The position numbers were made by a program, and so were the translations under genes. This document shows, in pieces, positions 25,334 to 36,545 of a stretch of DNA of 64,000 nucleotides. Position 1 is the first letter of the stretch; each line of letters begins with the position of its first letter. A model generated the notes under the pieces. That model was not told where the DNA came from and searched no databases. It saw only the letters and a program-made list of their open reading frames with translations. Origin of the DNA: Bradyrhizobium barranii subsp. barranii (lineage in GTDB: Bacteria; Pseudomonadota; Alphaproteobacteria; Rhizobiales; Xanthobacteraceae); the NCBI RefSeq assembly GCF_017565645.3, contig NZ_CP086136.1:10628810-10692809 (forward strand), read 5' to 3'.

Positions 25334-26340
25334 CTGAACTCGCCGCAAATGATCCGCTGCCGAAGCCGAAGCGCGATCTCGCGCCGATCCTGCTGCCGAT
25401 CGCGCTGGCGCTTGCGATGATTCCTCTGGTGGGATCACCCAGCACCTGGCTGACGCTGACCGCCGCGAGTCTTGCCATGGGCATGATGATCTTCATCATG
25501 GCCTCGGGGCTGACGCTGGTGTTCGGCCTGATGGACGTGCTCAATTTCGGCCACGGCGCCTTCATCGCCGTCGGCGCCTATGTGGCAACCCTCGTGCTGG
25601 CGCCGTTCGCGGCCTCGATGCAGGCGGATTCACTCTGGATCAACCTCGCGGTGCTGGCGCCGGCGGCACTGCTGTCGATGGCGGTGTCCGGCGCGCTCGG
25701 CCTGGTCGTCGAGCGCGTGCTGATCCTGCCCGTCTATGGCCAGCATCTGAAGCAGATCCTGATGACGACGGGCGGCCTGATCGTCGCCGAGCAGACGCTC
25801 TATGCGCTGTGGGGACCGCAGATCATCCCGACGCCCCTGCCGACATCGCTGCGCGGCTCCTTCATCCTCGGCGACGTCGCGATCGCCAAATACCGCGTGC
25901 TGGCGATGCTGATCGGCCTCGCGGTGTTCATCGCGATCCAGCTCGTGCTCAACCGCACCAAGCTCGGCCTGCTGATCCGCGCCGGCGTCGAGAACCGCGA
26001 GATGGTCGAGGCGCTCGGCTATCGCATCCGCCGCCTGTTCCTCGGCGTGTTCATGACGGGATCGGCGCTCGCCGGCCTCGGCGGCGTGATGTGGGCGCTC
26101 TATCGCGAGCAGGTTCACGCCTCCATGAGCGACGACCTCACCGTCCTGATTTTCATCGTCGTCATCATCGGTGGCCTCGGCTCGATCGGCGGCTGCTTCA
26201 TCGGCGCCATCCTGGTCGCGATGGTCGCCAATTACGGCGGCTTCCTGGTGCCGAAACTCGCCCTCGTCTCCAACATCCTGCTGATGGTCGCCATTCTGAT
26301 GTGGCGGCCACGCGGCCTCTATGCGGTGACCAGCCGATGA
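25330..26340 (+). CDS. Branched-chain-amino-acid-type ABC transporter permease (LivH-like)
   Basis: 336-residue inner-membrane permease. GTG start at 25330 overlaps the previous stop. The LivH hallmarks are GLTLVFGLMDVLNFGHGAF, VERVLILPVYGQHLKQIL, GLLIRAGVENREMVEALGY and the C-terminal IGGLGSIGGCFIGAILV. It has about eight hydrophobic helices, after a short charged N-terminal tail (LAANDPLPKPKRD). It pairs with the LivM-like permease encoded next (ATGA overlap). Confidence 0.9.
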   Translation: MTELAANDPLPKPKRDLAPILLPIALALAMIPLVGSPSTWLTLTAASLAMGMMIFIMASGLTLVFGLMDVLNFGHGAFIAVGAYVATLVLAPFAASMQADSLWINLAVLAPAALLSMAVSGALGLVVERVLILPVYGQHLKQILMTTGGLIVAEQTLYALWGPQIIPTPLPTSLRGSFILGDVAIAKYRVLAMLIGLAVFIAIQLVLNRTKLGLLIRAGVENREMVEALGYRIRRLFLGVFMTGSALAGLGGVMWALYREQVHASMSDDLTVLIFIVVIIGGLGSIGGCFIGAILVAMVANYGGFLVPKLALVSNILLMVAILMWRPRGLYAVTSR

Positions 26341-27417
26341 TGCTCCTGTCGGGCGATCCGCCGAAGAGCCGCGTGCTCACGCTTCTCCTCATCGTCATCA
26401 TCCTGGCGCTGGCGGCGACGCCGTTCCTGTTCCCGGGTGCCAAGGCGCTGAACGTCGCGGCCAAGATCTGCGTCTTCGCCGCGCTCGTCGCCTCCTACGA
26501 TCTGCTGCTCGGCTATACCGGCTCGGTGTCGTTCGCCCACACCATGTTCTACGGCATCGGCAGCTACGCCATCGCGATCGCGCTGTACGGGATGGGCCCG
26601 AACTGGGCCGCGGTCGCAACCGGCATCGTCGTCGGCCTGCCGCTCGCGGCACTGCTCGCGCTCGCGATCGGCCTGTTCTCGCTGCGGGTCGCCGCGATCT
26701 TCTTTGCCATGATCACGCTCGCGGTCGCCTCCGCCTTCCAGGTCTTCGCAGCTCTCCTGGCTGACCGGTGGCGAGGACGGGCGCAGCTTCCAGCTGCCGG
26801 AATTGCTGCGGCCCGGCACGGTGCTGATCTCCAAGAACCTGTTCGGATTCGAGATCAACGGCCGCATCCTCACCTTCTACCTGGTGTTCGCCGTCTCGGC
26901 CCTGATGATCCTCGCTTTGTTGCGTGTCGTGAACTCGCCGTTCGGACGCGTGCTCCAGGCGATCCGCGAGAACCGCTTTCGCGCCGAGGCGCTCGGCTTT
27001 CGCACCGTCTTCCACCTGACCTACGCCAACTGCCTCGCCGCGCTGGTCGCCGCCAGCGCCGGCATTTTGAACGCGCTGTGGCTGCGCTATGCCGGCCCCG
27101 ACACCTCGCTCAGCTTCTCGATCATGCTGGACATTCTGTTGATGGTGGTGATCGGCGGCATGGGCACGATCTACGGCGCGATCATCGGCGCCACCATCTT
27201 CATCCTCGCCCAGAACTACCTGCAATCGCTGATGGGCGTCGCCTCCAAGGCGGCGAGCGAAGCCGGCCTGCCGTTGCTGCCGGGGCTGTTGCATCCCGAT
27301 CGCTGGCTGCTGTGGCTCGGGCTGCTGTTCATCGCCAGCGTCTACTTCTTCCCGACCGGCGTCGTCGGACGTTTGCGCAATGCCGGCCGCGACAAGAGCG
27401 CGGGCGCTTCGCATTAA
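26337..27417 (+). pseudogene. Branched-chain-amino-acid-type ABC permease (LivM-like), frameshifted
   Basis: The second permease of the importer. The first part (MMLLSGDPPKSRVLT to AFQVFA) has LVASYDLLLGYTGSVSFAH, the LivM signature. After about 26746-26752 the protein continues in another frame as QLSWLTGGEDGRSFQLPELL, FEINGRILTFYLVF, LQAIRENRFRAEALGFRT and the C-terminal IGGMGTIYGAIIGA. The total length of 1081 bases is not a multiple of three, so one base is extra or two are missing. Both halves keep all family motifs, which argues for a recent change or an assembly error. If real, the importer would lack a permease. Confidence 0.82.
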
Positions 27418-27591
27418 GCTGCGGTTAATGATGCAGCGCAGCGGTTGTGATGGGCGCGGCACAACCGCGACGTGATTCACGCCCCACTGCATACGGGCGC
27501 GACTGCACAACCGGATTAATGCTTAGGTAACTGGCTTTCCTAAGGTTTGCGCCATTTGTGCGGTGTATTCCTGTCCTTCCAGGGAGGGGGA

Positions 27592-30500
27592 ATGCGTCAG
27601 GTCTTTTCCACGGTGACAGCCGGAATGTCATCAGCCGCGACCAACGGCTGGGCGGCCTTGGCGCGGCGTGGTCCTGTCCTCTGGCTGACCCTGTGCGGCG
27701 TGTTGCTGGTCGCCGGGATCTTCGCCGTGACCGCCATGGCCGTCGGCGAATTCCGCGAGCGGACCCTGGCCAACCGCGAGCGCGAGCTGGAAAACACGGT
27801 GCAGCTGATCGCGCGGCACTTCGATCAGCAATTCCAGGATTCCGACGTCGTCGCCGCCGACCTGATCGGGCAGATGAACCTGCCGGAGATCACCTCGCCG
27901 GCGATGTTCCGCGAGCGCATGTCCGGGCTCGCGACGAACCAGATGCTGCGGAGCAAGATCAGCTCCGTCTCCTATCTCGGCGACATCGCGATCTACGATG
28001 CCGACGGCGAGCTGATCAACTGGTCGCGGGCCGAGCCGCTGCCCAAGATCAACGTCTCCTCGCGCGCCTATTTCCAGACGTTCAAAACCGATCCGATGGC
28101 CGAATCGGTCATCCTGGAATCCGTCCGCAGCTTCATCATCGGCAAATGGACCACGATCGTCGCGCGGCGGCTGAGCGGCGCGGACGGCACCTTCCTCGGC
28201 GCCATGGTCCGGCGGATCGATCCGGACAGCTACCGGCAGTATTTCGCTTCTGTCGCACTTGCCGAGGGTACGGCGATCTCGCTATTCGATCGCGAAGGCA
28301 AGATGCTGGCGCGCTATCCACATGTCGAGGAGCTGATCGGCAGGAATTTCAAGGACGCGCCGCTGATGCGCAAGATGCTGGCCGAGGGCGGCCGGCACAC
28401 GCTGCGCGTCAAGGGACCGATCGACGGCGAGGACCGCCTCGGCTCGGGGGCCTCGCTGTCGCATTTCCCGCTGGTCATCGTCGCGACCAACACCACGAGC
28501 GCCGCGCTGGCCGACTGGCGTCAGCAGACCGGCTTCATGGTCACCACGGCAACGCTTTCGGCGATCGTGATCGCATTGATCCTCTTCCTGATCATCCGCC
28601 AGATCAGCCGGCAGAACCGGGAAGCCCAGGAGCGGATCGAAGCGGAACGGCTGCGGCTCGACACCGCCCTGAACAACATGTCGCAAGGGCTGATCCTGTA
28701 CGACGCCGCCGGATTTATCGTCACCTGCAACCGCCGCTACTCCGAGATGTTCGGCCTGTCCGACGACGTCATCAAGCCCGGCTGTCACATCCGCGAGGCG
28801 ATGCAGCATCGCAAGGAGCGTGGCTCGTTCGGCGGCGACGTCGAGACGTTTTGCACCGATGTGATGCGGGTCGTCGCCGAGGGCAAGGTCTCCAGCAGGA
28901 TCCACGAACTGCCCAACGGCCGCGCCTTCCAGGTCATCAACACCCCGCTGGCGCAGGGCGGATGGGTCGCCACGATCGAGGAAATCACCGAGCGGCGCAA
29001 TCTGGAGCAGGAGCGCGACCGCAACTACATGTTCCTGCGCGAGATCATCGATCACATCCCCTCGCAGATCACGGTGAAGGATGCCCTGACGCGGCAATAT
29101 CTGCTGGTCAACCGGACCGCCGAGGAGCAGTTCGGCCAGTCGGGTGACGTCATCGTCGGCAAGACTCCTTTCGACATGTATCCGGAGGCCGCCGCCAGGA
29201 TCGTCAACGACGACGACAGCAAGGCGCTGCAGGCGCCCGGGGGATTGTTCAAGGACGAGCACGCCTGGCAGAGCCAGACCAAGGGACCGCGCTACATCAC
29301 CTCGACCCGGATCGGCATTCGCGACAAGTCCGGCGAGCCGCGCTACCTCATCAGCGTCGTCGAGGATGTCACCGAGCGGCGGCGCGCCCACGAGAAGATC
29401 GCGCATATGGCGCATTACGATGCGCTGACCGACCTGCCGAACCGCACGCTGTTCCGCGAACAGATCGAGCGCGAGCTGGCGAAGGTCGCCGGCGGCGAGC
29501 AGTTCGCGCTGCTCTATATCGACGTCGACGAATTCAAGGGCATCAACGATTCGCTCGGCCATCACGTCGGCGACGAGCTGCTGAAGGCGATCGCGACCCG
29601 GCTGCGCGGCTGCCTCAAGAAGAGCGACCTGATCGCGCGGCTCGGCGGCGACGAATTCGCCGTGATCCAGAGCGGAATCCAGTCCTCTGCGGACGTGCTG
29701 TCGTTCGTGACGCGGATCTACGAGGCGATCCGCCAGCCCTATCACTGCCTCGGCCATCAGCTCTCCACCGACGCCAGCATCGGCATCGCGCTGGCGCCGC
29801 AGGACGGGACCGATCTCGACCAGCTCATCAAGCACGCCGATCTTGCGATGTACGGCGCCAAGGCCGAAGGACGCCGCACCCATCGCTTCTTCGAGCCGGA
29901 GATGGATGCGAGCGCCAAGGCGCGCCTGACCATGGAGCAGGATTTGCGCCAGGCGCTGGTGAACGGCGGCTTCGAGATCCACTACCAGCCGCTGGTCGAC
30001 CTGCGCACCAACGACGTGTCGGGCTGCGAGGCGCTGCTGCGCTGGCGGCATCCCGAACGCGGCTGGGGTCGCCGGCAGAGTTCATTCCGATCGCCGAGGA
30101 TACCGGCCTGATCAACGAGCTCGGCGACTGGGTGCTGCGCATGGCCTGCAACGAGGCCGCGACCTGGCCGGCGCATGTGCGGATTGCGGTCAACGTCTCG
30201 CCGGTGCAGCTCAAATGCGACACGCTGGCGCTGCGGATTGCGGGCGCACTCGCCGCCTCCGGGCTCTCTCCCTCCCGGCTCGAGCTCGAAATCACCGAGG
30301 CCGTGCTGATCCGCGACGACGAGGCCGCGCTCTCGATCCTGCACCAGCTCCGGTCCATCGGCGTGCGCATCGCGCTCGACGATTTCGGCACCGGCTATTC
30401 CTCGCTGAGCTATCTGAAGCGCTTCCCGTTCGACAAGATCAAGATCGACCGCTGCTTCGTCGCCGACATCGCGGAGACCAGTGGCGCGCCCGTGATCGTG

Positions 30501-30701
30501 CAGGCGGTGGTGAACATCGCCGCGGCGAGCCACATGACCACCGTCGCCGAGGGCGTCGAGACCGAGGCGCAGCGCGAGATGCTGCGCGCGCTCGGCTGCA
30601 CGGAGATGCAGGGTTATCTGTTCAGCAAACCGAAGCCCGCCGCCGAGGTGCGAAAGCTGTTCGGTCCGAACGATGCCGCGCCGGTGGCGGCGGTGGCCTG
30701 A
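27592..30701 (+). pseudogene. Membrane sensor PAS-GGDEF-EAL protein, frameshifted in the EAL domain
   Basis: About 1036 residues if the frames are joined. TM helix 1 (VLWLTLCGVLLVAGIFAVTAMAV), a periplasmic Cache-like sensor region (about 60-320; FFARRLS-type segments such as KWTTIVARRLSG), TM helix 2 (ATLSAIVIALILFLII), two PAS domains, a GGDEF domain with an intact LGGDEF motif, and an EAL domain (SGCEALLRWRHPERG, EITEAVLIRDDEAA, LDDFGTGYSSLSYLKRF, EGVETEAQREML). The frame breaks near 30062-30072, where one missing base turns the expected SPAEFIPIAEDTGLI into another frame. ATG 27592 follows AGGGAGGGGGA. The next gene begins one base after its stop. Confidence 0.82.
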
Positions 30702-30702
30702 G

Positions 30703-31764
30703 ATGGCGAAGCCGCGGAAAACGTCAGCGAAAGGCGTCGACGTCGCGGATTCCTATGCCGTGCGGCTGATGCAGCATCTGGTGGTGCCGACCTTCGTGAT
30801 CGACCCCAAGCGCCGCGTCGTGATCTGGAACAGAGCCTGCGAGCGGCTGACCGGCGTCCCCGCCGCGGAGGTGATCGGCACGACGAAACACTGGCAGGCC
30901 TTCTACGAGACCCGGCGCCCCTGCCTCGCCGACCTGGTCGCGCTCGACCGTCCCGAGCAGCTGCCGGAGTTTTATTCGGAATATGCCGCACGCGGCCACA
31001 ACGGGCTCGGCTTTTCCGCGGAGAACTGGTGCGTGATGCCCAAGCTCGGCAGCCAGCTCTATCTCGCGATCGACGCCGGTCCTATCCACGACGAGGCCGG
31101 CCATCTGATCGCCGTGGTGGAGACGCTGCGCGACCTCACCGATCAGAAGCGCGCCGAGATGGCGCTGAAGGAGCTCGCCACCAAGGACGGGCTGACCGGC
31201 CTGTCGAACCGGCGCGCCTTCGACCAGATGCTGATGAGCGAATGGGCTCGCGCCCAGCGGACGCAGAAGCCGATGGCGCTGCTGTTCGTCGACGTCGATC
31301 ATTTCAAGCTGTTCAACGACCGGCACGGCCACCAGAGCGGCGACGAATGCCTGCGCGCGGTCGCTGATGTCGTCAGCCGCCATGCCGTACGCCCGCTCGA
31401 CCTCGCCAGCCGCTATGGCGGGGAAGAGTTCGCGCTGATCCTGCCCGACATGGAGTGCGATGCCGCCTGCGCCATCGCCGAGGAGATCCGCGGTGCCGTC
31501 ATGGCCTTGCGGATCGCTCATGGCGCTGCTGGCGCCGGCAACCACGTCACCCTCAGCGTCGGCGTCGCCAGTCATATTCCCACTGAGGCCGACGGCAGCC
31601 CCGACCGGCTGCTGGGTGCGGCCGACGAGGCGCTCTATGCGGCAAAACGGCTCGGCCGCAACCGCGTCATCTGCTCCGAGCGGGTGCTGGCGGAGTTTGC
31701 GCGCGCCGATCGCGACGCGCCCGCCATTCCCATCGTCGCCAATCGCCGGTCCGGCCGCGGCTGA
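30703..31764 (+). CDS. PAS-GGDEF diguanylate cyclase
   Basis: 353-residue cytoplasmic protein that would make c-di-GMP. PAS domain at about 20-155 (VVPTFVIDPKRRVVIWNRACERLTG), then a GGDEF domain with DGLTGLSNRRAFDQML, FVDVDHFKLFNDRHGH and the active-site YGGEEF. An RxxD inhibitory site is not evident five residues before the motif. ATG 30703 lies directly behind the stop of the upstream GGDEF-EAL gene, so they are co-transcribed and may act on the same local c-di-GMP pool. Confidence 0.88.
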   Translation: MAKPRKTSAKGVDVADSYAVRLMQHLVVPTFVIDPKRRVVIWNRACERLTGVPAAEVIGTTKHWQAFYETRRPCLADLVALDRPEQLPEFYSEYAARGHNGLGFSAENWCVMPKLGSQLYLAIDAGPIHDEAGHLIAVVETLRDLTDQKRAEMALKELATKDGLTGLSNRRAFDQMLMSEWARAQRTQKPMALLFVDVDHFKLFNDRHGHQSGDECLRAVADVVSRHAVRPLDLASRYGGEEFALILPDMECDAACAIAEEIRGAVMALRIAHGAAGAGNHVTLSVGVASHIPTEADGSPDRLLGAADEALYAAKRLGRNRVICSERVLAEFARADRDAPAIPIVANRRSGRG

Positions 31765-32021
31765 CGTTCATCCCACCGAAGGTTCTATTGCGTTCGGCCT
31801 CACCAGCAGGTGATGTTGCGCCGGAACAACACGGACATTTTCTTCTCGAAAAGCCGCAATTTCTCGGGCGCTCGTTTGAATATAGATAAGTCGTTGCCTG
31901 GAGCCGTATTCGCTTTGAAATTTCCCCGCCCATCTCGCAGTGCCCTCCCCTCCGCCAAAAACGCCATCGCCTGGTCGCGAGTGACGGCCGAACCCGGCTC
32001 GGCCGCCAAGACCAACCGCTG

Positions 32022-33284
32022 ATGACCGAAGCAGCCGGTTCGTTTCGCGGACGTGTCCACCGCGGAACGCAGCAAATTGGTGGCACCTGCATCGAGCTCG
32101 AGGCCGCGGGCGAGCGAATCCTGCTCGACCTTGGCCTTCCGCTGGATGCCGACGGCGCGTCCGACGATCTTCTCCCGCCGGTGGCCGGGCTTCGCGTCGA
32201 AGATCCAACCCTGCGTGCGGTTGTCCTGTCGCACGGACACGGCGATCATTGGGGTTTGCTTCCCCTGTGCAGACCCAATGTCCCCCTCGCCATGGGCGCT
32301 GCGACCGCGCGCATCATGTGTGCGGCAGCTCCTTTCGTGCCCAACGCCTTCGTGCCCAATGCTTCATTCGAGCTGAACGATCGCAGAACCTTCCAGATCG
32401 GCCCGTTCAGCATCACGCCCTATCTTGTCGATCACTCGGCCTATGATGCCTATGCGCTGCTGATCCAGGCTGCCGGCCGGCGTCTGTTCTACAGTGGCGA
32501 CATTCGTGCGCACGGTCGCAAGGGCGGTCTGTTCGAGCGATTGGTGAGCCATCCGCCCCGCGGTATCGACACGATGCTGATGGAGGGGTCGAGCCTCGGC
32601 CGTCTCGACGAGCACACGCAATTCCCGACGGAGGACGACATCGAGGCGCGGCTGACCCAGAGTTTTAAACAGCCAGGCTTCGTCATCCTCTCGGCGTCCG
32701 CGCAGAACATCGATCGCATCGTCAGTATCTATCGCGCCTGCAAGCGTAGCGGCCGGACGCTGCTGCTGGATCTCTACGCAATGGAGATATTGCGGGCCAC
32801 CGGCAACGAGCGCCTGCCGAACGTCGACTGGCCCAATTTATCGGTCTATGTGCCGGAATATCAACGGCGGCAGATCGCAAGGAACAAGCGCTTCGACCTG
32901 CTGGATCCGTACAAATCCGCACGGATCTACCGCGAGCGCATCACCGAGATCGCCGATCGCACCGTGATGCTGTTTCGCCCGGCGATGGCCGACGACGTGG
33001 AGACCGCAAATCTCTGGCCCGGCACCAGAGCGATCTGGTCGCAATGGGACGGATATCTGAAGGACGGTCCTGGCGCCAGACTGAAGGCGGATCTCGCGAC
33101 ACGCGGCGTTCCCATCGAGATCATCCACACCTCGGGCCGCGCCAGCATCCTGGATCTCAAGCGGCTCGCGAACGCAATACAGCCGGACAGGCTGGTGCCC
33201 GTTCACACATTCGAAGGCGAGAGTTTCTCCAGATATTTTGACAACGTCACGCGACGCAGCGATGGCGAATGGTGGGAGGTATGA
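32022..33284 (+). CDS. MBL-fold beta-CASP-type hydrolase (RNase J-like)
   Basis: 420 residues. MBL metal motif SHGHGDH in LRAVVLSHGHGDHWGL, a second site DHSAYDAY, YSGDIRAHG (motif 4), then an inserted region of about 180 residues (FVILSASAQNIDRIVSIYRACKRSGRTLLLDLYAMEIL) typical of beta-CASP nucleases. The C-terminal RMMBL-like part reads IIHTSGRASILDLKRLANAIQPDRLVPVH; the histidine usual in the SGHA motif of RNase J is replaced by arginine. No KH or J-specific C-terminal domain is present. It begins an operon whose next ATG is two bases after its stop. The 257 bases before it show no convincing gene and hold an AT-richer stretch suited to a promoter. A nuclease role is inferred. Confidence 0.8.
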   Translation: MTEAAGSFRGRVHRGTQQIGGTCIELEAAGERILLDLGLPLDADGASDDLLPPVAGLRVEDPTLRAVVLSHGHGDHWGLLPLCRPNVPLAMGAATARIMCAAAPFVPNAFVPNASFELNDRRTFQIGPFSITPYLVDHSAYDAYALLIQAAGRRLFYSGDIRAHGRKGGLFERLVSHPPRGIDTMLMEGSSLGRLDEHTQFPTEDDIEARLTQSFKQPGFVILSASAQNIDRIVSIYRACKRSGRTLLLDLYAMEILRATGNERLPNVDWPNLSVYVPEYQRRQIARNKRFDLLDPYKSARIYRERITEIADRTVMLFRPAMADDVETANLWPGTRAIWSQWDGYLKDGPGARLKADLATRGVPIEIIHTSGRASILDLKRLANAIQPDRLVPVHTFEGESFSRYFDNVTRRSDGEWWEV

Positions 33285-33285
33285 G

Positions 33286-34198
33286 ATGCACTTCAGACGC
33301 GGAATCCGGGGCGACGACTTTCGCAAGGCACTCGAGACACTCGCCCAGCAGGATGGGTGGTGGAAAGACGTTCTCGCCGATCCCACACTCATCATCGGCA
33401 TTCGGGACGAGTACCTGAACGTCTATTGGCAGGGACAATCCATCTTCAAAGTGTCATTCAAGGGCGGGAAGGTGACCGCCTCGACGCACGAAAAGTATCT
33501 GCTGAATCCGGACTTGAAGGATCAGGTTTCGCTCGTCGAGGGGAAGTTCGCCTTCGGCAAGGCCGAGCAAAGGATGCTGACGCGCGACTACGAAGGCGCA
33601 GAGACGCTGGCGAAGCTCAAAAGGGCCGCATCGCCCTATTCCGGACAGGAGAAGGAAGGCGTCCACGAGATCGCGACGTCCAATCTCTCCGTCGTCGACG
33701 TCGAGATTGCGATCAACGCATCCGGCGTCCCCGGCATCAAGCGGAACCTCCCCCGCACGGACCTGGCGAACTTCGAAACGACGGCGACCGGCGTGGATCT
33801 AGTGTTCTGGGAGGCCAAGACGTTCAGCAACCCCGAGCTGGAGAACGGCGACATTGTTCGGTCAGCTCGGGGACTATCAGAAGGTGATCGACCTTCACAA
33901 GACGGAGTTCGATGACAGCTATCGATGGATTGCGAAGAATCTGGCCGAGATGGCGGAATGGAGCAACGGACACCGCAATGTGGCTGCGGCGATCAGCGCC
34001 GTTGCGGACGGGGCCAAGCTCAACGTGAGCAGCGCCAATGTCGGGCTGCTCGTGTATGATTTCACCGCGGTTCAACGCGATCGCAAGGACAAGGAAGGCA
34101 AGACGCTGAACGACAGAGTGATTGAATCGCTCGCGAAGGTGGGCGTGGGTCCGGAGCGGATCAGGTTCAAAGGCACGACAAAGGGTCTCACCATCTAA
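33286..34198 (+). pseudogene. Uncharacterised PD-(D/E)XK-like protein, frameshifted
   Basis: About 303 residues when two frames are joined near 33856-33860, where deleting one C restores DIVGQLGDYQKV. I do not recognise a named family. A possible nuclease core is visible: a strand with an acidic residue (NLSVVDVEIAIN), then VDLVFWEAKTF giving an ExK, then GQLGDYQKVI resembling the QxxxY motif that follows ExK in Cas4/RecB-like nucleases. The N-terminal part (LIIGIRDEYLNVYWQGQSIFKVSFKGG) is beta-rich. It sits between the beta-CASP protein (two-base gap) and a PPP phosphatase (start within about 25 bases), so all three probably act together. ATG 33286 follows GGGAGG. Confidence 0.65.
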
Positions 34199-34223
34199 GT
34201 TGGCACGCGGGAGAAACCTGGCT

Positions 34224-34943
34224 TTGCATCTTCCCGAGCACGAAGAGCTCACCTTCGCGATCGGCGACATCCACGGCTGCTTTGAGAAGCTGACGTCGCT
34301 TCTCGCCGCGTGCGACCAGATTCGCGGCCAGCGGAGCGCCCAGTTCGTCCTTGTCGGAGACTACATCGACAGGGGGCCCCAAAGCCGCGAGGTGATGGAT
34401 TTTCTCGTCGGCAGCGAGGGGAAGCAGGACCGCCCCTTCGTCTGTCTGCGGGGCAACCATGAGGAGATGCTGCTTCGCGCGGCCGACATGGAGCGCACCG
34501 ACCGCGACCTGATGAATTGGTGGGGAAACGGCGGCGAGCAGACGCTCGACAGTTACGGGATCGACGATCCGGCCGATCTGCCGCGCGAGCATCTCGACTG
34601 GATCCGCGCGCTTCCGCTGATGAAAATGGAGCATGGACGAATTTTCGTCCACGCAGGACTACGGCCGGACGTACCGGTGGCGTCGCAGTCCGAGCGAGAC
34701 TTGCTCTGGATCCGGGAACCCTTCCTGTCGTCGGATCATGACCACGGGCTTTTCGTTGTCCATGGCCATACGCCGGTCCGGTCCGGGACAGCTGATCTGC
34801 GAGCCAACCGGTTGAATCTGGATACCGGCGCCTGCTTTGGCGGCCCGCTCACCGCGGCCGTGTTCGCCACCTCGGAGACGGGCCCGTTGATGTTCGTGAC
34901 CGATTCCGGCGAGATCTCGGCACCGGCCGCCCTCCGGGATTGA
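34224..34943 (+). CDS. PPP-family metallophosphatase (ApaH/PrpE-like)
   Basis: About 239 residues. The three PPP metal motifs are intact: FAIGDIHGC, LVGDYIDRGP and LRGNHEEML, with later histidines in IFVHAGLRPD and FVVHGHTPV. Length and spacing fit small bacterial PPP enzymes, which include serine/threonine phosphatases and Np4N hydrolases that also remove nucleoside caps from RNA. The start is uncertain: TTG 34224 has GGGAGA about nine bases upstream; TTG 34200 is the first in-frame start after the previous stop. It ends the three-gene operon and is followed by tRNA-Arg. Confidence 0.82.
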   Translation: MHLPEHEELTFAIGDIHGCFEKLTSLLAACDQIRGQRSAQFVLVGDYIDRGPQSREVMDFLVGSEGKQDRPFVCLRGNHEEMLLRAADMERTDRDLMNWWGNGGEQTLDSYGIDDPADLPREHLDWIRALPLMKMEHGRIFVHAGLRPDVPVASQSERDLLWIREPFLSSDHDHGLFVVHGHTPVRSGTADLRANRLNLDTGACFGGPLTAAVFATSETGPLMFVTDSGEISAPAALRD

Positions 34944-35046
34944 AGAGCGAAGCATAAGACCAGGAATTGGGCGATGCCGGGCGTCCGGGCCCGGGCAAAG
35001 CGGAGGTTGCCCACCCCCCGCCAATCGGCTAAATGAACCTCGACTA

Positions 35047-35123
35047 GCACCCGTAGCTCAGCTGGATAGAGCGTTGCCCTCCGAAGGCAAAGGTCACACG
35101 TTCGAATCGTGTCGGGTGCGCCA
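35047..35123 (+). tRNA. tRNA-Arg (anticodon CCG)
   Basis: 77 bases form a full cloverleaf. Acceptor stem GCACCCG pairs with CGGGTGC; D arm GCTC/GAGC; anticodon stem TTGCC/GGCAA around loop CTCCGAA with anticodon CCG (reads CGG); T arm ACACG-TTCGAAT-CGTGT; the discriminator G and CCA are encoded. It lies alone between the phosphatase gene and a long gene-free stretch. Confidence 0.96.
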
Positions 35124-35576
35124 GTCTCCTTACTCTTTACCGAGACTGTGTGCCGGACCGAGACTGTGCGCCGGCTTTTGACGCTGTGACGGCACCATCC
35201 ATCAAATGTTGCGGCTCGCAATCTGGCCTTCGCGACGTCGCGCGCGCGTCCGGCCGCTAAGCACGTCGAATGGAAAAGCGGTCACAAATCTCTGACCAGC
35301 CGCGCAATTGATTGCACCCTTAAATTGTACTATTGTTCCTGGGTTGCGGAAAATGAGCCTGATCGCAGCATGTTTCTGGTCGCGATCATCGGGGCGGGTC
35401 CGATTGTAGGCGTGATGTCGCAGACCGATATCCGGCTATTGTCGGATTGAATCACCCTGGGAGCGCGCTCGTCCCGCAAGCAATGAGCCAACACGGGACC
35501 TGCTTGACGACGTCGGTCCAGTGGCGGCGCCAGGAACAGGGCTTCGCAATCAAGCGAGTCGGGAGAGGTGCTTCAG
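35124..35576. other. Gene-free stretch after tRNA-Arg with an 18-bp tandem repeat
   Basis: No convincing gene on either strand. At 35139-35174 two 18-base units (ACCGAGACTGTGTGCCGG with one T/C difference) stand head to tail right after the tRNA. The rest is less GC-rich than the neighbourhood (for example CCTTAAATTGTACTATTG). I find no copy of the tRNA 3' end within the window that would mark an integrated element. Confidence 0.6.
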
Positions 35577-36509
35577 ATGAAAACCATCGCCCAGTTCGTC
35601 GAGGATCGCATTACGACGCTGTCCGACCTGAAAGACGCACTCCAGACCGCGATGCAATTGGAGTTCTCCACCATCCCGCCTTATCTTTGCGCGCAATGGT
35701 CGATCAACAGCGACCCGGGCGGCGTCGGCGGTATGATTGAGGACATTGTGGTGCAAGAGATGTATCACTTTGCCCTGGCAGGCAACATGCTGACCGCGAT
35801 CGGCGGCGTGCCATCCATCGCCAATGCGGCCTTCATTCCGAGCTACCCGACCAACGTCCTGCCCGGAGGAATTCTGCAAAAGTTGCCCGTTGATCTGAAG
35901 CCGCTTACGCCAGATCAAGTTCAGGTCTTCATGCAGATCGAGTATCCGGAATTTCCACCGGTCGCGCTCACCGCAAGAACGGGACCCGCGACGATCGGTG
36001 ATTTCTACGATGCGATCGCCGAGGGTTTCACCACAGTCAATCCCACGATCAATGCCAGCGCTTTCGCGGTCAATTCGGGGGAAGCAACGCCGATCAAGAG
36101 CATCGACAATGCGCAGGCGGCGATCCTGCTGATCAAGGGCGAAGGTGAAGGTACGGAAGGCTCTCCTGACCAACCCCCAACCGGCAATGCAACATTCGCC
36201 CACTATTATGTCTTCAAGGAAATCTACACCGAGAAAACGCTGGTGCAGGATGCGGCTGGCCATTGGAGCTTTACGGGAGCACCAATCCCGTTTCCGACCT
36301 GGTTCGATTTTCAGCAATCGACCGTCACACCGAGTCCGTCACTTGCGTTCAACCAGGCCCTGTCGCAGCTCTTGATCGGGCTTCAAACGTGCTGGACAAG
36401 CGGTACAAGACCCGGCATCGGCGCCATGTTCACACTTCAGTCGCTTGGCACGGACCTCATCCAGCAAGGCATTCGTCCTGAGTTCCTATGGGCGCCTCCG
36501 TCGGCATGA
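35577..36509 (+). CDS. Ferritin-like domain protein (VioB/RebD N-terminal type)
   Basis: 310 residues. The N-terminus (about 10-230) matches the ferritin-like iminophenyl-pyruvate dimer synthase domain found in VioB and RebD: LKDALQTAMQLEFSTIPPYLCAQWSI carries the first Glu, and DIVVQEMYHFALAGNMLTAIGG supplies the ExxH metal ligands. VioB and RebD are about 1000 residues, so this is a stand-alone ferritin-like unit, and no other violacein-type genes are nearby. ATG 35577 is used; GTG 35568 is possible. Base composition is less GC-rich than flanking genes and it lies behind a tRNA, so transfer is possible. The reaction is unknown. Confidence 0.75.
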   Translation: MKTIAQFVEDRITTLSDLKDALQTAMQLEFSTIPPYLCAQWSINSDPGGVGGMIEDIVVQEMYHFALAGNMLTAIGGVPSIANAAFIPSYPTNVLPGGILQKLPVDLKPLTPDQVQVFMQIEYPEFPPVALTARTGPATIGDFYDAIAEGFTTVNPTINASAFAVNSGEATPIKSIDNAQAAILLIKGEGEGTEGSPDQPPTGNATFAHYYVFKEIYTEKTLVQDAAGHWSFTGAPIPFPTWFDFQQSTVTPSPSLAFNQALSQLLIGLQTCWTSGTRPGIGAMFTLQSLGTDLIQQGIRPEFLWAPPSA

Positions 36510-36545
36510 ACTCCGGATCTACCGCCTGCCTCCCAGAGCAAGCAC

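Follow-up and report, generated by a model that had tools for sequence, protein, structure and literature searches.

A beta-CASP metallo-beta-lactamase gene with interchangeable PD-(D/E)XK-like partners in an accessory module beside a tRNA-Arg gene of Bradyrhizobium barranii

Beta-CASP metallo-beta-lactamases (MBLs) and PD-(D/E)XK proteins both belong to well-known folds, and there is also precedent for immune systems to which an MBL nuclease is attached. HamM (trypsin-MBL) is a ComEC-like MBL fused to a trypsin-like protease that recurs in bacterial immune systems (PMC12799240). Here we consider a different MBL arrangement, found in a stretch of 64,000 nucleotides of Bradyrhizobium barranii subsp. 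barranii (NZ_CP086136.1; the whole stretch is referred to as the window). Three genes on the + strand follow each other closely there: gene 1, a compact beta-CASP MBL of 420 aa (32022..33284), gene 2, a PD-(D/E)XK-like middle protein (MID; 33286..34198), and gene 3, a PPP-type calcineurin-like phosphoesterase (PPP; 34200..34943). The window module proteins contain no Pfam protease domain, MBL being followed by MID and PPP. In the module defined here an RNase J-like beta-CASP protein is repeatedly paired with an exchangeable restriction-type nuclease. No description of such a pairing was found in the libraries or the literature searched, with subscription papers and most preprints lying outside the coverage.

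Gene linkage and partner exchange

The MID alignment was used to scan one genome per species, so that loci were found without reference to MBL. The 28 loci recovered belong to Bradyrhizobium, other Alphaproteobacteria, Acidobacteria, Bacteroidota, Myxococcota, Actinomycetota and others. A preliminary description of the window, made from its letters alone, had grouped the three genes as one set. Co-occurrence around MID bears out the MBL neighbour, which lies within ~100 bp in 24 of the 28 loci, and the PPP neighbour only inside Bradyrhizobium (7 of 28). MID is present in 23 of 265 Bradyrhizobium genomes.

Starting from MBL, a PD-(D/E)XK-like protein (one of five types) adjoins all 33 near-complete Bradyrhizobium MBL loci among the matches listed, and such a partner is found at 16 of 21 distinct non-Bradyrhizobium MBL loci (12 by profile, four by motif only). 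Of the 33 MBLs counted, one is spread over two frames (G221) and another has lost its start (G230); fragments not near-complete among the matches listed (G038:C4:6006254, G107, G026, G264) are excluded, as are H2 (identical to H1 in length and match coordinates) and L187 (same match scores as L186). Note that the four motif-only matches are not independent, because the partners had already been read when the D-ExK regular expression was composed. This expression matched four of 252 neighbour and control proteins and missed both c41 proteins; it also matched L072 c5 away from the site, and a neighbour at L156 that was left uncounted. The motif-only partner at L186 is convergent to MBL, and at L179 MID lies ~0.65 kb downstream.

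The protein distances of MBL and MID covary, with a Mantel r of 0.44 for 19 non-redundant loci (pairs <30% apart in MBL dropped) and of 0.80 for a set of 40 loci in which some strains occur twice, as genome-scan and G-handle copies; none of 2000 permutations was as high in either case. MBL and MID together form the wider unit; seen from MBL, which is constant, the PD-(D/E)XK partner is interchangeable. The preliminary description had the families of the three proteins right and missed this exchange of partners.

Further genes were seen close to MBL. In the related Bradyrhizobium loci L099 (1961-3346) and L108 (4958-6244) an ADP-ribosylglycohydrolase-family gene overlaps the MBL start, and L091 retains a short remnant of it; it is possibly an extra module component. 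At three loci of different genera or genomes, MBL is directly adjoined or overlapped by a gene for a small protein, and these proteins share a GIFW-type start as judged by reading (L178:4558-5001, without a Pfam match; L183:7244-7618; L154:7800-8048). A small-protein family of Bacteroidota (cluster 13) is encoded near MBL and MID at L063:8789-9199 (this member without a Pfam match), L065:3491-4084 and L067:8791-9195. An actinobacterial metagenome-assembled genome (L062:7024-8903) has a tandem MID pair upstream of a single MBL cut by the contig end.

Properties of the three proteins

Gene 1 is a single open frame carrying HGHGDH and beta-CASP-type motifs, as had been recognised at the outset. 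The residues H71, H73, D75 and H76 of the HxHxDH metal site are invariant among 22 diverse relatives, and so are D160, D250, H369 and H395; at L155 the fourth metal-site histidine is replaced (by reading). We take D250, H369 and H395 to be the beta-CASP motifs A, B and C, respectively. A histidine at motif C is a mark of RNA-type members, and the active-site motifs of the module MBL are RNase J-like and probably of RNA type. The protein matches Pfam Lactamase_B_2 (49 bits, cut-off 27), and its RMMBL match is below the cut-off. Its best NCBIfam similarity is to RNase J, far under the curated cut-offs (TIGR00649, 48.9 of 400 bits; NF047419, 41.7 of 820 bits), and the Cas14 model gives 19.7 bits (cut-off 800). 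EF2904 and RNase J are its relatives in the PDB. A second, longer RNase J-like MBL is encoded separately in the same genome.

MID starts one base after gene 1 (33284/33286) and matches no Pfam family. Among 72 aligned relatives, D159, E176 and K178 are invariant and Q193 is kept in at least 90%. The predicted model of an intact relative (predicted local distance difference test, pLDDT, 95) has its elements in the alpha-beta-beta-beta-alpha-beta core order, and the best VIA matches to it are mainly of the PD-(D/E)XK fold. Judged by the alignment and this confident model, MID is PD-(D/E)XK-like, in agreement with the preliminary description both in the proposed nuclease-type fold and in the D-ExK-Q site. 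In the window itself, the EAK and QLGDY segments cited in that description occupy separate frames. All three genes are real, and the split of MID over two frames had been overlooked.

Instead of a complete MID frame, the window genome has two open reading frames that are out of phase with each other: 33238-33915, with its in-frame ATG at position 33286, and 33854-34198. Relatives in the databases, with identities of up to 97%, are intact at 303 aa (P0001), and MID is one complete frame in a genome of the same species (L090/G011). Frame-changing indels relative to G011 are also present in two nearby window genes, a LIV-type permease (25809-27417) and a GGDEF-EAL gene (27547-30701; both named by reading), which makes an assembly error plausible. 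Real decay is possible because one indel is multi-base and differently broken copies occur in other strains. The broken MID of the window may thus be either an assembly error or the product of genuine decay.

Gene 3 has an open frame, whose first in-frame start in the window is TTG, so that the true start is uncertain. Its assignment as a PPP phosphatase was correct: the motifs GDIHG, GDYIDRG and RGNHE are complete, and Pfam Metallophos is matched with 68.3 bits (cut-off 21.5). The protein resembles the bacterial Pnkp phosphatase (TIGR04075, E 7.2e-16) and ApaH-type enzymes and fails the ApaH equivalog cut-offs (TIGR00668, 38.7 of 222.85 bits; NF001204, 76.3 of 176 bits). Its close subfamily (E<=1e-50) is present in 41 of 265 Bradyrhizobium genomes and linked to MBL in 28 of them; in the other 13, MBL is absent from the stretch examined, some contigs ending nearby. 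PPP lies within 1.6 kb of MBL in 29 of 32 Bradyrhizobium loci and in the window (30 of 33), being either divergent from it or located downstream in the same orientation; a small number of copies are fragmentary or split. The subfamily is an accessory one, MBL-linked in Bradyrhizobium. The idea that PPP belongs to the core genes of Bradyrhizobium at this site was rejected, as its close subfamily occurs in only 41 of 265 genomes and the empty sites have no space for it.

Other phosphoesterases accompany MBL on plasmids. On pORIO1 of Cereibacter the genes for a MID-like protein, MBL and a metallophosphoesterase follow in this order with overlapping ends, next to Tn3-family and TniB/TniQ genes. 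On pE2-28 of Prevotella a metallophosphatase gene shares 4 bp with MBL, and WYL and DUF262 genes lie next to them. Both phosphoesterases match Pfam Metallophos and are missed by the profile of the Bradyrhizobium subfamily at E<=0.001, which suggests that calcineurin-type phosphoesterases joined MBL modules separately.

Insertion site and mobile carriage

Relative to 11 module-less Bradyrhizobium genomes, the window contains an inserted segment (31701..35004). These genomes match the window up to ~31700, continue with 71-178 bp and match again from 35005; G076, in which the GGDEF match is split, was left out of this count. The left flank is a GGDEF-domain gene outside the module (30673..31764, + strand; label by sequence reading), which was found in 15 of 30 chosen genomes, and the right border is tRNA-Arg with the anticodon CCG (35047..35123, + strand). 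The earlier suggestion of an acquired island next to the tRNA gene is therefore substantiated, the site between the GGDEF gene and tRNA-Arg being empty in the 11 genomes. ARAGORN detects the tRNA-Arg in ten of them; in the eleventh (L130/G260) the match stops within the tRNA, and L084/G026 has a degraded module beyond a partial tRNA-Arg(CCG) match cut inside the gene. Because of these two cases, tRNA-Arg(CCG) itself seems to be an integration site.

To the right of the tRNA gene, a segment of ~1.4 kb (35124-36531) is absent at this position in L104, L129, L133 and L136. It contains an open reading frame for a protein of 313 aa (35568-36509), ferritin-like by reading, so that this tRNA gene has a second insert of variable occurrence beside it.

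The module is also carried on plasmids and predicted viral contigs. Phage-type integrase genes are located near some distant loci (L053, L068), and terminase-like (L190), tail-tape-measure-like (L186) and serine-recombinase (L189) neighbours were identified by reading. L189 and L190, found via MBL, encode distant MID-like partners.

Possible role and relation to known systems

Our best explanation, held with moderate confidence, is that the three genes of the window represent a mobile accessory nuclease module, probably acting against foreign elements, in a copy whose MID has decayed or was mis-assembled. MBL is the constant part of this module, joined by one of several PD-(D/E)XK partners and frequently by a calcineurin-type phosphoesterase. 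Any catalysis, the substrates, the order in which the proteins work and a function in defence are inferred. The most likely targets of the module would be phages or other elements that enter the cell: the variable part of the PD-(D/E)XK partner might recognise and cut foreign nucleic acid, or an infection product, the beta-CASP MBL would then break down RNA or cleaved ends, and the phosphoesterase could strip phosphates from ends or remove a nucleotide signal. A division of labour along exactly these lines, with MBL processing, the partner recognising and cutting and the phosphoesterase acting on ends or a signal, is a doubtful guess. Somewhat better placed, though still tentative, is the proposal of a previously undescribed immune or inter-element conflict system that crosses phyla. 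In such a system a constant beta-CASP RNA/DNA nuclease would be combined with plug-in PD-(D/E)XK partners, phosphoesterases would have been recruited repeatedly, and prophage-like elements, plasmids and tRNA-side islands would serve as carriers.

In the Bradyrhizobium neighbourhoods, resolvase (three members), recombinase (2), transposase IS110 (2) and RepB (2) occur among the first 25 of 154 Pfam neighbour families and are absent from the first 25 of 186 control families, a contrast that is weak because only these portions were compared. The patchy spread and the mobile carriage speak for a defence role, as do some neighbouring genes. Outside Bradyrhizobium, restriction-modification genes are found at L177 and WYL and DUF262 genes at L182, and the PADLOC candidate families PDC-S11 and PDC-M72B beside L058 and L054, respectively. 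REase-ARP and PRTase-CE are neighbours as well, but at MID loci without MBL (L059, L066). In the comparison that yielded PDC-S11 and PDC-M72B, three of ten neighbours matched any PADLOC family, counting the PRTase of L066. The support from these defence-gene neighbours is anecdotal.

A number of results weigh against an anti-element module. PADLOC-DB 2.0.0 gave nothing for the module proteins at E<=0.001 (best E 0.045). In the Bradyrhizobium neighbourhoods, 129 neighbours (of 137 script-chosen proteins at 23 of 32 loci, with the site shared with the window, L080 and L082 left out) matched 83 PADLOC families, compared with 167 for 123 random controls (out of 138 proteins that 20 control regions supplied). 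As the neighbours match fewer families than the controls, there is no defence-island signal in Bradyrhizobium, and this neighbourhood comparison was rejected as proof of defence. The defence or repair function put forward in the preliminary description stays a proposal. Four of the 28 MID loci (L054, L059, L064, L066) have no MBL in the DNA examined, and five of the 21 non-Bradyrhizobium MBL loci (L155, L156, L178, L182, L191) have no recognised partner. Foldseek alone returned no MID match at E<=0.001, MBL had no match at E<=1e-10 in annotated phage records, and a MID pattern scan of viral contigs revealed no relative. Besides the copy in the window, broken copies are found at L045/G221 (MBL and PPP), L047/G042 (MID) and L085/G252.

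The same proteins could belong to repair or RNA turnover rather than to immunity, with MBL trimming ends, the PD-(D/E)XK protein incising a damaged or structured substrate and the phosphoesterase cleaning ends as in polynucleotide kinase-phosphatase. The similarity of PPP to the Pnkp phosphatase and ApaH-type enzymes, the RNase J-like character of MBL and the mostly ordinary neighbour families in Bradyrhizobium (first 25 of 154) fit such an accessory module. The patchy distribution, the empty sites, the carriage on plasmids and predicted viral contigs and the exchange of partners are unusual for repair genes, and we regard it as unlikely. Tight gene packing, mobile carriage, the several broken copies and the ADP-ribosylglycohydrolase-family gene over the MBL start in two related loci would also suit a selfish, toxin-antidote-like stabilisation, in which the PD-(D/E)XK protein is toxic and MBL or the phosphoesterase restrains it or mends the damage. 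MBL and MID both retain catalytic-type residues, however, MID occurs without MBL at four loci and the gene order varies, so that this appears less likely still.

PPP might, in turn, be an unrelated chromosomal neighbour, with only MBL and the PD-(D/E)XK protein belonging together. The subfamily profile has no relatives at the non-Bradyrhizobium loci searched, and 13 of the 41 PPP genomes lack MBL in the stretch examined, some contigs ending nearby, both of which speak for this. Against it, the subfamily is accessory and linked to MBL in 28 of 41 genomes, in both co-directional and divergent arrangements, and other calcineurin-type phosphoesterases overlap MBL in Cereibacter and Prevotella; a chance neighbour is therefore improbable. 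Should the anti-element module that we favour prove protective against phages, it would represent a new immune system, and one open to direct tests in laboratory strains. If it is not protective, it would still add a new case in which two nuclease folds evolve together as one transferable unit.

Among described enzymes, the module MBL shares HxHxDH, motifs A-C and a partial match to RMMBL (the RNA-specificity domain) with RNase J and other beta-CASP nucleases, including Cas14 of type VII CRISPR. It differs from RNase J and Cas14 in its size of only ~415 aa, in its PD-(D/E)XK partners and in scores far below the family cut-offs. Gene 3 has the complete PPP motifs and profile similarity in common with ApaH, PrpE and Pnkp-phosphatase enzymes, but stays under every listed equivalog cut-off and forms a separate accessory subfamily. 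For MID, a sequence relation to the PD-(D/E)XK defence nucleases Upx, Shedu SduA, Can2/Card1 and Hachiman HamA was not found; it is set apart from them by an N-terminal region of its own and by its MBL partner. HamM resembles the present module in that an MBL nuclease is recurrently attached, in the case of HamM to bacterial immune systems. It combines a ComEC-like MBL with a trypsin-like protease, whereas an RNase J-like beta-CASP protein is combined with PD-(D/E)XK proteins in the module described here (PMC12799240).
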